Shown: piece by piece, positions 919 to 14,644 of the stretch
Position numbering within the stretch: position 1 is the stretch's first letter
Layout: the number at the start of each line of letters is the position of its first letter
Source of the DNA: Ignavibacteriota bacterium
Lineage (GTDB): Bacteria; Bacteroidota; Ignavibacteria; Tepidaquicellales; Tepidaquicellaceae
Length of the DNA: 64,000 nucleotides
Assembly (NCBI GenBank): GCA_016218085.1
Contig: JACREY010000021.1
Span: forward strand, 1 to 64,000
Direction of reading: 5' to 3'
Notes under the pieces: model-generated
Told to the model about the DNA's origin: nothing
The model's database searches: none
Seen by the model: the letters and a program-made list of their open reading frames with translations, nothing else
Translations under genes and position numbers: made by a program

Positions 919-2505
919 ATGCAAAAGCTCTTACTACTCGGAGATGAGGCGATTGCCCAGGCCGCAATCGATGCAGGCATCTCAGGAATATACGCATACC
1001 CCGGAACACCATCAACAGAAATTACGGAATATGTTCAAAACTCAAAAGAAGCACAGGAAAAAGGAATCAGGTCTTCCTGGTCGGCAAATGAAAAAACTGC
1101 AATGGAAACCGCACTTGGAATGTCTTATGCAGGCAAGCGCTCGATGGTCTGCATGAAACACGTCGGACTGAATGTAGCCGCAGACGGATTCATTAATTCA
1201 GCCATAACAGGCGTAAACGGAGGAATGATAATAGTCGCGGCCGATGACCCTTCGATGCATTCATCGCAGAACGAGCAGGACTCGAGATTTTATGGTAAGT
1301 TTGCTCTCGTTCCGATTTTAGAGCCGAGCAATCAGCAGGAAGCATACGATATGGTGCATTACGGATATGAAATATCGGAAAAATATAAAATTCCGGTATT
1401 ACTTAGAATAACAACAAGACTTGCACATTCGAGAGCGGGTGTGATGCCGCAGGAAAAGAAAGCGCAAAATGAATTAAAACTTCCTTCAAACCTTACGCAG
1501 TTTGTGCTTCTTCCCGCAATAGCAAGAAGACAATATAAAGATTTACTGAACAACCAGAGTAATTTTATTAAAGAATCGGAGGAATCAAATAACAATAAAT
1601 ATTTTGATGGAGCAGACAAGAAACGCGGAATAATTGCTTGCGGACTTGCATATAATTACCTGATGGAAAACTATCCTGACAGGAAAGTACCGAATCCCGT
1701 TTTAAAAATTTCGCAGTATCCCCTGCCGAGAAAAATGGTTGAGAAAATATGCAACGAATGCGAAGAGATAATGGTGCTGGAAGACGGATACCCGATGATA
1801 GAAGAATTAATAAAAGGATTTTTATCGAGAGGCATAGTTGTAAAAGGCAGGCTGGACGGGACTATTCCGAGAGACGGAGAGCTGAATCCGAATATTGTTG
1901 CCCGCGCACTCGGAATGGAAGACACAAGAGGAAACGACATACCTTCGCTTGTGGCTCCAAGACCGCCTTCACTCTGCGCAGGTTGTCCGCATATAGATTC
2001 ATATCTCGATTTAAATGCCGTGCTGGAAGATTTGACGAAAGGTAGAGTCTTTGCAGATATCGGCTGTTACACTTTAGGAGCATTGCCGCCGTATAATTCG
2101 ATAAACTCGACGGTTGATATGGGGGCTTCCATTACAATGGCAAAAGGTGCCGCGGATGCAGGGCTGGTACCTTCAGTGGCTGTAATCGGAGACTCGACTT
2201 TCACGCATTCCGGAATTACGGGATTACTTGATGCAGTAAACGACAAATCCCCTATCACGGTATTCATACTCGATAATGCTACAACAGCAATGACAGGCGG
2301 ACAGCTTTCTTCTGCAACAGGAAAGATTGAAGATATTTGCGCAGGAATCGGAGTCGAGAAAGAACATATTCATATTCTGAATCCGTTGAAAAAACATCAC
2401 GAAGAAAATATGAAAATCATTAAGAAGGAACTTGATTTTAATGGCGTATCTGTGATTATTCCCAGAAGAGAATGCATACAAACAATAGGAAAAATTAAAA
2501 AATAA
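919..2505 (+). CDS. iorA: indolepyruvate ferredoxin oxidoreductase, alpha subunit (no C-terminal ferredoxin domain)
   Basis: Large subunit of the cytoplasmic enzyme that oxidatively decarboxylates aryl pyruvates from Trp, Phe and Tyr to aryl-acetyl-CoA, reducing ferredoxin. The N-terminal half is the pyruvate-ferredoxin-oxidoreductase-like domain (GIYAYPGTPSTEI, residues about 20-40). The second half is the TPP-binding domain, with RPPSLCAGCPH, then GDSTFTHSG and DNATTAMTGGQ. At 528 residues it is shorter than the classical archaeal protein of about 600-650, which ends in a two-[4Fe-4S] ferredoxin domain. Here translation stops just after the TPP domain (IPRRECIQTIGKIKK), and the downstream DNA does not encode that domain in another frame. 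The partner iorB follows after an inserted gene. ATG at 919 puts the conserved N-terminus in place. Family assignment is firm. Confidence 0.93.
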   Translation: MQKLLLLGDEAIAQAAIDAGISGIYAYPGTPSTEITEYVQNSKEAQEKGIRSSWSANEKTAMETALGMSYAGKRSMVCMKHVGLNVAADGFINSAITGVNGGMIIVAADDPSMHSSQNEQDSRFYGKFALVPILEPSNQQEAYDMVHYGYEISEKYKIPVLLRITTRLAHSRAGVMPQEKKAQNELKLPSNLTQFVLLPAIARRQYKDLLNNQSNFIKESEESNNNKYFDGADKKRGIIACGLAYNYLMENYPDRKVPNPVLKISQYPLPRKMVEKICNECEEIMVLEDGYPMIEELIKGFLSRGIVVKGRLDGTIPRDGELNPNIVARALGMEDTRGNDIPSLVAPRPPSLCAGCPHIDSYLDLNAVLEDLTKGRVFADIGCYTLGALPPYNSINSTVDMGASITMAKGAADAGLVPSVAVIGDSTFTHSGITGLLDAVNDKSPITVFILDNATTAMTGGQLSSATGKIEDICAGIGVEKEHIHILNPLKKHHEENMKIIKKELDFNGVSVIIPRRECIQTIGKIKK

Positions 2506-2518
2506 TTTTTTGCTTTAA

Positions 2519-2547
2519 TTCACCACTAAGACACTAAGAACACTAAG
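2519..2547 (+). repeat. left inverted repeat (CACTAAG type) of the GxxExxY unit
   Basis: TTCACCACTAAGACACTAAG followed by AACACTAAG. It matches the reverse complement of 2979-3007 at 24 of 29 positions, compared by eye. Confidence 0.75.
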
Positions 2548-2555
2548 TTTTTTTT

Positions 2556-2978
2556 ATGGATAAGAACAGCATAACGCAAAAGTATATTAATGATTTAGCA
2601 TACAAAATTGTAGGCTGTGCTATTGAAGTTCACAAAAACTTAGGTCCCGGGTTATTAGAATCAATTTACGAAAAATGTCTATTAGAAGAATTAAAAGAGA
2701 AAAAATTAATATATAATTCACAGGTACAGATACCATTAATTTATAAAAATAAAAGTCTGGAATGTAATCTTATTTTGGATATAATAGTCGAAGATCTGAT
2801 TATTGTTGAATTGAAAGCTGTTGAAACAATTATTCCTGTACACAAAGCCCAATTATTAACATACTTAAAGTTAACGAATAAACCGAAAGAACTTTTAATA
2901 AATTTTAATTGTGAAAATATCACTAACAGTTTGGTTTCTTTAGTAACAGAAGATTTTTCTGTTTTACCAAAGGAATAG
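2556..2978 (+). CDS. GxxExxY protein (PD-(D/E)XK nuclease-like), inserted in the ior operon
   Basis: A 140-residue protein of the GxxExxY family, usually placed in the PD-(D/E)XK nuclease-like superfamily (PDDEXK_3). Signature: GCAIEVHKNLGPGLLESIYEKCL (residues about 18-40), then a possible acidic core, LDIIVEDLIIVELKA, where D-x(n)-ExK would be the catalytic residues. The biological role of the family is not established. Homologues often occur in several copies per genome and as isolated inserts. Here the gene starts 8 bp after one inverted repeat and its stop abuts the other, so the unit 2519-3007 sits compactly between iorA and iorB. The gene has strongly AT-rich codon use. Mobility is inferred from the repeats; no transposase is present. 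Confidence 0.88.
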   Translation: MDKNSITQKYINDLAYKIVGCAIEVHKNLGPGLLESIYEKCLLEELKEKKLIYNSQVQIPLIYKNKSLECNLILDIIVEDLIIVELKAVETIIPVHKAQLLTYLKLTNKPKELLINFNCENITNSLVSLVTEDFSVLPKE

Positions 2979-3007
2979 CTAAGTGCACTTAGTGCCTTAG
3001 AGGTGAA
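2979..3007 (-). repeat. right inverted repeat (CACTAAG type) of the GxxExxY unit
   Basis: Its reverse complement begins TTCACCTCTAAGGCACTAAG and pairs with 2519-2547. It begins directly after the GxxExxY stop codon. Confidence 0.75.
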
Positions 3008-3030: not shown

Positions 3031-3612
3031 ATGAAAAAAGACATAATACTTGCAGGTGTCGGAGGACAGGGAATCTTATCAATTGCGGCTACAATAGGAC
3101 TTGCGGCAGTGGATATGGGATTATTTTTAAAGCAAGCTGAAGTTCACGGAATGAGTCAGCGCGGCGGAGACGTACAGTCACATTTAAGATTATCCGATAA
3201 AGACATTGCATCAGATTTAATCCCCTTCGGAAAAGCCGATATGATTATTTCTGTCGAGCCGATGGAATCACTCAGATATCTACCTATGCTATCGAGTGAA
3301 GGTTGGGTAATTACTAATACAAAACCCTTTATCAACATTACAAATTATCCAGATAAAGACACACTATTAAAAGAAATTGATTCATTGCCAAGACATATTG
3401 CTCTGGATGCGGATAAAATTGCCAGAGAAATCGGCTCGGCAAAATCTGCGAATATGGTAGTTTTGGGTGCTTCTGCTCCGTTTTTAGAGATTTCTGTCGA
3501 AAATCTTGAGAAATCGATTGGAAATTTATTTAAAAGAAAAGGTGAAGCCATAATAAACGCAAATATTAAGGCATTTAGAGCAGGGGTTGAATTTGCTCAA
3601 GAACATAAATAA
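3031..3612 (+). CDS. iorB: indolepyruvate ferredoxin oxidoreductase, beta subunit
   Basis: Gamma-type catalytic subunit that pairs with IorA. The N-terminus MKKDIILAGVGGQGILS is the family's glycine-rich signature, followed by QAEVHGMSQRGGDVQSH (residues about 35-52) and the ISVEPMESLRYL segment, all typical of the POR gamma domain. The length of 193 residues is normal. AAAGAAAGGATTTTAA before the ATG is a usable ribosome binding site. It lies 525 bp after iorA because of the inserted GxxExxY unit; the two were presumably adjacent before insertion. Electron transfer would need an external ferredoxin or separate Fe-S subunit, since IorA lacks its usual Fe-S tail. Confidence 0.93.
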   Translation: MKKDIILAGVGGQGILSIAATIGLAAVDMGLFLKQAEVHGMSQRGGDVQSHLRLSDKDIASDLIPFGKADMIISVEPMESLRYLPMLSSEGWVITNTKPFINITNYPDKDTLLKEIDSLPRHIALDADKIAREIGSAKSANMVVLGASAPFLEISVENLEKSIGNLFKRKGEAIINANIKAFRAGVEFAQEHK

Positions 3613-14036: not shown

Positions 14037-14410
14037 CGATACTAACTAAATATTTCACCCCTTTCGGGGTTCGTGTTTCGTATTGTTTCTTTTTTCTATA
14101 ATAGTTTTACCCCTTCGGGGTTCTTGCTCTTAACCCTCCAAAAATATCAGTGATTATCATAACAAATCATCGCTTTTTGAGCCCGCCGTGGAGGACAGGA
14201 ATGACAAAACAGGAGGCGTTCCCAAAGAGGACTTTGGGAACGAGGAAATCTGTGCATCTGTGGCTATGTTTTAGTTCTCGCTCTTAACCCTCAAAATAAA
14301 TCCCTCTCTTTCCGCTCTTCCCGTGTGCAAAGCTCTCGCTTTTCATTCAGAATTCATAATTTGCATTTTCTGCATCCCGATTTATCGGGACAGCATTCAA
14401 AATTTACTAT

Positions 14411-14614: not shown

Positions 14615-14644
14615 CTTAGTGCCCTGCGTGCTCTTAGTGGTGAA
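14615..14644 (-). repeat. solo CACTAAG-type repeat
   Basis: CTTAGTG, a short spacer, then CTTAGTGGTGAA: the same motif family as the inverted repeats around the GxxExxY gene, without a gene here. Confidence 0.6.

Follow-up and report, generated by a model that had tools for sequence, protein, structure and literature searches.

The locus between iorA and iorB raises the question of whether a lone nuclease-like gene, enclosed by a pair of inverted repeats and lodged between two genes of one operon, constitutes a mobile unit. The original prediction, made for the 64,000-nucleotide stretch of Ignavibacteriota DNA analysed here (the window), described the 489-bp segment at this place as a compact mobile element composed only of a GxxExxY gene with a PD-(D/E)XK-like product and two 29-bp inverted repeats that together split iorA from iorB.

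A nuclease gene between two heptamer arrays

The extent, composition and position of the segment were confirmed to the nucleotide (Table 1). The left arm, TTCACCACTAAGACACTAAGAACACTAAG, and the reverse complement of the right arm, TTCACCTCTAAGGCACTAAGTGCACTTAG, match at 24 of 29 positions, and the observed inverted score of 21 was reached by 1 of 5000 dinucleotide shuffles of both flanks (shuffle mean 8.6). The left arm stops 8 bp short of the ATG, and the right arm begins immediately after the stop codon. The inverted repeats are therefore real, but their make-up had been overlooked: each arm consists of three non-palindromic heptamers, CACTAAG and one-mismatch forms of it, at a spacing of 8-9 bp (gaps of 1-2 bp). 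Likewise, the gene was confirmed as the content of the unit, but five further GxxExxY genes with arrays in the same genome, and the gene-less arrays there, had escaped notice. The six genes have the flavours (heptamer types) CACGAAG, CACTAAG (two genes, 68% identical), TTAAGATT/TTGGATT and CACAGAT, and one has a weak pair. At the start of the contig, positions 1-335 of the window hold direct repeats, among them a 93-bp unit present in 2.2 copies, as well as a string resembling a tRNA 3' end (cggatgggttcaaatccctctgccagctc); no tRNA was found.

Table 1. Positions of the unit, its host genes and the gene-less arrays in the window
Feature	Positions	Strand	Remarks
iorA, indolepyruvate ferredoxin oxidoreductase alpha subunit	919..2505	+	Upstream host gene
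Left array	2519..2547	+	TTCAC leads; CACTAAG-type heptamers at 2524-2530, 2532-2538 and 2541-2547
GxxExxY gene, 140 aa, PD-(D/E)XK nuclease fold	2556..2978	+	D75, E85 and K87 intact
Catalytic codons of the GxxExxY gene	D75 2778-2780, E85 2808-2810, K87 2814-2816		
Right array, inverted	2979..3007	-	CTAAGTG 2979-2985, CTTAGTG 2988-2994, CTTAGAG 2996-3002, then GTGAA
iorB, beta subunit	3031..3612	+	Downstream host gene; adjoins iorA in seven relatives
Gene-less pair, CACAGAT heptamers	14248..14262	-	Flavour of own-genome paralogue L005; read by eye
Gene-less array, CACTAAG flavour	14615..14639	-	CACTAAG AG CACGCAG GG CACTAAG

The protein scored 138.7 bits against TIGR04256 (curated cut-off 35), which makes it a member of the family, and 134.1 bits against PF13366. 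These were the only matches in the domain search, with no HUH/IS200/IS605 tyrosine transposase, and the gene-bearing unit yielded no domain of a known transposase or recombinase (DDE, HUH, serine or tyrosine). The structure model built from a 122-row alignment had a pLDDT of 96.3 (40 for a single-sequence fold). Its best match among solved structures was the Cas4-like SSO0001 (4ic1), with a probability of 1.00 but E=0.008, followed by lambda exonuclease; the PADLOC Cas4 match to the protein was weak (E=0.0034). The fold, the D...ExK active site and the likeness to Cas4 and lambda exonuclease thus bear out the predicted PD-(D/E)XK class. In the alignment D75 and K87 are present in 122/122 rows and E85 in 121/122, and the dN/dS of GxxExxY genes is 0.02-0.12, indicating strong purifying selection. 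As the active-site residues are nearly invariant and the gene is kept under such selection, the protein is probably a conserved, working nuclease, as judged from sequence comparison and the model.

Two variants of the protein were observed. In L033 (G017), which is 94% identical to L024, the equivalent of Glu85 is lost (ALK for ELK) and the arrays are still present. In L445 (G065:C9:88000-92500) the GxxExxY domain continues in frame into an entire RecQ helicase with DEAD, Helicase_C, RecQ zinc-binding, RQC and HRDC domains, and matches of this type with an 883-aa open frame also occur in G077 and G093. The linker DNA of L445 carries an inverted CTGATT-like array, which would fit a unit that entered upstream of recQ and then lost its stop codon. 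Such a natural fusion points to a role in DNA recombination or repair.

Agreement between left and right arrays and with the protein lineage

We compared ~270 homologues, with left-right matching scored in three sets: 94 genes of the order with both flanks, 81 loci from many bacterial phyla, and 90 genes from a separate held-out phylum sample. Most have inverted heptamer arrays of a flavour that is peculiar to the gene and common to its left and right sides (CACAGAG, CGCAAAG, CATTAAG, CACGAAT and others), and GxxExxY genes with arrays occur in over a dozen phyla. When the left flank of a gene was compared with its right flank, with mismatched loci as the control, the best inverted match had a median of 20 versus 11 among the relatives, 22 versus 10 in the other phyla and 19 versus 11 in the held-out sample; 70, 70 and 87% of the genes, respectively, lay at or above the 95th control percentile. 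The expectation that each homologue would be flanked by the same repeats was thus borne out in part, since most homologues in all three sets are flanked, but by repeats of their own flavour rather than identical ones. Homologues without flanking repeats, named beforehand as evidence against the prediction, were the smaller share: a clear array pair was absent in about 13-30%, which counts against a mobile unit.

The pattern of left-right agreement indicates what is being conserved. Among 51 genes in which both sides have three clean heptamers, identity between the two sides at the free heptamer positions 2, 4 and 5 was 0.88, 0.67 and 0.89, compared with 0.60, 0.36 and 0.48 for mismatched loci. 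The spacer bases were near background (0.45 versus 0.36), and yet the pattern of spacer lengths was equal on both sides in 40 of the 51 genes, versus 11 in shuffles, with 0 of 10,000 shuffles as high. A selected stem would keep the spacer bases too, so that the matching of heptamers and spacer lengths, with barely any matching of spacer bases, argues for reading by a protein rather than a paired stem. On these sequence grounds, recognition of the arrays by the GxxExxY protein is strongly indicated.

The flavour of the arrays also follows the identity of the protein (Mantel test, 0/2000). Strong matches between the left array of one gene and the right array of another were found for 2-5% of pairs below 40% protein identity, 57% at 60-70% and 89% at 70-80%, and the trend held when pairs with homologous outer flanks were removed (54 and 87% in the two upper classes). 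At orthologous sites with proteins less than 80% identical, a gene's own left-right similarity exceeded the cross-species left-right similarity in 15 of 18 disjoint pairs (p=5e-4), from which it follows that both arrays changed together; clear examples are L011/L012 and L014/L117.

One residue could be linked to one base of the heptamer. Thr15 goes with G at position 5 in 10 of 14 phylogenetically independent contrasts, with 0 against (family-wise p=0.002), and in the held-out set 10/10 Thr15 genes have G at this position, whereas 15/24 others have A (p=7e-4). The window protein, with Ala15 and A at position 5, agrees with this rule. Glu16 was set aside: the contrasts stood at 9 to 0 and the held-out set, where power was weak, at 3/3 (p=0.24). 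An association of Asn131 with G at position 2 (raw 15/18 versus 7/49, held-out p=0.002) is not claimed, as its family-wise value in independent contrasts was 0.53. The link at residue 15 would provide a natural specificity series for a predicted DNA-reading nuclease of only 140 residues.

Junction histories and gene-less arrays

The original prediction called for iorA-iorB junctions lacking the unit, and for a gene not present there in all relatives. Both were found: seven relatives (G003, G006, G008, G015, G016, G020 and G023) have neither gene nor array, and the congener G001 has one gene-less solo array, which supplies the iorA stop codon. In G005 (L038 1-100) a different dispersed repeat, cattcccgcgaatgcgggaatcc, lies at iorA-iorB at a contig end, which suggests that this junction collects unrelated repeats. 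At sdhD-sdhA, G005 is empty, G001 has the left array only, G000 a full unit, and G020 a full unit together with about eleven tandem arrays. The mutS-tadA junction of genus g17 holds a full type A unit in G031 and G025, joined arrays without the gene in G026 and G034 (G026 retains ~40 bp of the gene start), a type B unit with a different GxxExxY protein (31-35% identical) and CTGAT-type arrays in G030 and G027, and neither gene nor array in G028, G038 and G039. In the tree of the host genes mutS and tadA, genomes with type A or its deleted forms group in one clade and those with type B in the other. By parsimony, this would mean two independent acquisitions, with the doublets at this junction formed by internal deletion, and, more generally, gain and loss of units at junctions. 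Since most empty sites carry no array, the arrays appear to arrive with the gene. Inspection by eye revealed no target-site duplication at iorA-iorB, sdhD-sdhA or mutS-tadA, but the empty sites there are too diverged for a firm reading.

These histories bear on the idea of a homing-type element, in which a convergent doublet would be cut at its centre by a dimer, and the gene would be inserted between the half-sites through repair templated by a gene-bearing copy. The gene-less convergent doublets are indeed oriented like the arrays around a gene. However, the mutS-tadA species tree puts the doublets inside a gene-bearing clade as deletions, one of them with its remnant of the gene, and empty sites at all three junctions mostly have no array, so that homing seems quite unlikely.

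The units are placed with an orientation bias. Based on open reading frames, they are co-directional with the upstream gene at 76 of 80 loci in relatives and with both neighbours at 67 of 80; the corresponding figures in other phyla are 51 and 44 of 66. This placement is consistent with directional insertion or with a requirement that the unit be transcribed by read-through. It could also be taken as a sign that the arrays act in the operon mRNA, as stems or as sites of processing that keep the neighbours expressed, with the protein acting on RNA. Such a role is very improbable, given that the spacer bases do not pair, no Rfam match was found, the closest folds are DNA nucleases, and the bias itself may stem from a requirement for read-through expression.

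Arrays without a gene are widespread. Counts across genomes derive from pattern searches together with retrieved sequence stretches. The genome of the window has more gene-less arrays outside it, including a tandem block on C3 (L134, G000:C3:147551-147678), an unbroken run of at least 16 CACAAAG heptamers with an 8-bp period that adjoins direct copies of a composite CACTAAG array unit. The GxxExxY family is present in 36 of the 40 genomes of the order (own included), with 0-9 matches each. CACTAAG(2-3)CACTAAG occurs 36 times in 9 of the 40 genomes, versus 4 times for the reversed control; gene-free arrays are found elsewhere in all 4 genomes that carry a CACTAAG-type gene, compared with any array in 5 of the 36 others (hypergeometric 0.0014). 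CGCAAAG(1-3)CGCAAAG is present in 28 of 40 genomes, greatly exceeding its control, with a spacing typical of the lineage. At most 9 of the 60 array loci looked at, some of which overlap, had a GxxExxY gene within ~1.5 kb. In G020, the tandem arrays at sdhD-sdhA (L271, G020:C8) are direct copies of a ~54-bp unit that contains a single three-heptamer array, and they lie on the upstream side of the GxxExxY gene.

Tandem expansion of this kind, in L134 and in G020, is what one would expect if the arrays were ordinary slippage-prone intergenic repeats beside which genes had been captured. We regard such a passive association as still less probable than an RNA-level role: the inverted left-right match is specific to each gene, the spacer lengths match, the flavours are linked to protein identity and residue 15, and the mismatched-pair controls contradict it.

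A more serious alternative is a resident system like RAYT-REP, in which the gene is now immobile, the nuclease spreads or rearranges dispersed arrays in trans, and the gene is kept for a benefit of the arrays or the nuclease to the host. In its favour, many genes have remained at orthologous positions in different genera, under the purifying selection noted above; this constancy of place also weighs against a mobile unit. Gene-less arrays and doublets outnumber the genes, convergent doublets being common, and a genome commonly has one gene per flavour. The doublets and tandem arrays recall BIMEs and REPINs, and in 39 of 57 pairs the gene has diverged further than its flanks, as has been reported for rayt genes (PMC2817692). 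Against a purely resident system stand the whole units found where relatives have an empty junction, and the separate arrival of two families at mutS-tadA. We consider such a system unlikely on balance. Other observations weigh against a mobile unit. In G005 gene-less arrays persist without a cognate gene. No near-identical copies were seen at unrelated sites of one genome, only a tandem duplication, and the family is nearly absent from plasmids (5/72,556) and phages (0/50,697), leaving an origin from either unsupported. A tandem arrangement was observed in L075 (G011:C8:357630-361431), where two near-identical GxxExxY genes follow each other; the 454-bp repeat unit comprises the gene and a divergent array doublet, and the stub of a third copy is present.

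Proposed mechanism and comparison with known systems

The reading we favour, with a probability of roughly 55%, is that the 489-bp segment is a minimal mobile unit, a gene for a sequence-specific PD-(D/E)XK nuclease together with its own recognition arrays, accompanied by gene-less derivatives. The GxxExxY protein would read about three heptamers at fixed spacing (a footprint of roughly 23-26 bp), inverted at both ends of the gene, and its DNA binding, cleavage and part in causing movement are predicted properties. The nuclease may act on the arrays with host recombination and repair enzymes, which are probably involved because the protein has no strand-transfer domain. The whole unit, or the array pair without the gene, would be copied at a low rate into intergenic junctions of co-directional genes, and internal deletion would give rise to gene-less doublets and solo arrays, perhaps mobilised in trans. 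The predicted compact mobile element therefore stands insofar as gene and arrays behave as one unit with empty junctions in relatives, but it is not simply a transposon, since the genes are so often retained in place and outnumbered by gene-less arrays.

Arrays of their own flavour around genes in many phyla, together with scattered gene-less arrays, point to an undescribed repeat-spreading system. We tentatively suggest, with the odds somewhat against us, that the common short intergenic arrays of the CACAGAG, CGCAAAG, CACAGAT and CACTAAG types originate from GxxExxY nucleases, in a form of repeat spreading that relies on a lone PD-(D/E)XK nuclease and no transposase, with a readable code from amino acid to heptamer. 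This would offer a testable role for a widespread protein family of no assigned function and a source for common, unexplained short intergenic repeats. A search of openly licensed papers did not find the typical array strings and found PF13366 only in an unrelated context; GxxExxY was mentioned rarely, in one case in passing.

Among known systems, Cas4/RecB-like PD-(D/E)XK nucleases share the fold and the D-ExK-QxxxY residues, but GxxExxY has no helicase part and no CRISPR context, and repeats of its own enclose its gene. Inverted ends, gene-deleted derivatives and both empty and occupied sites are also features of MITEs and insertion sequences, whereas the GxxExxY unit encodes no DDE, HUH, serine or tyrosine recombinase and has heptamer arrays as its ends, with no target duplication visible at the diverged empty sites. 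Free-standing homing endonucleases resemble it in that a lone small nuclease gene is the whole element. However, the GxxExxY unit brings recognition arrays of its own, the doublets resemble products of deletion rather than targets, and the empty alleles, which for a homing endonuclease are intact recognition sites, usually have no arrays. The nearest analogue in organisation is the RAYT-REP/BIME/REPIN system (PMC2817692, PMC3116915), where a single gene also lies between two inverted copies of a dispersed cognate repeat, the repeat varies in step with the protein, there are gene-less doublets as well as tandem arrays, and the gene evolves faster than its neighbours with no clear recent copying. 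GxxExxY units are nevertheless not members of that system, because both protein and repeat differ in type: a PD-(D/E)XK nuclease in place of an IS200/IS605-like tyrosine (HUH) transposase, and direct arrays of non-palindromic heptamers in place of a palindrome with a conserved head. They also differ in their presence in more than a dozen phyla. If the proposed reading is true, they would represent a second, unrelated invention of the RAYT-REP arrangement.
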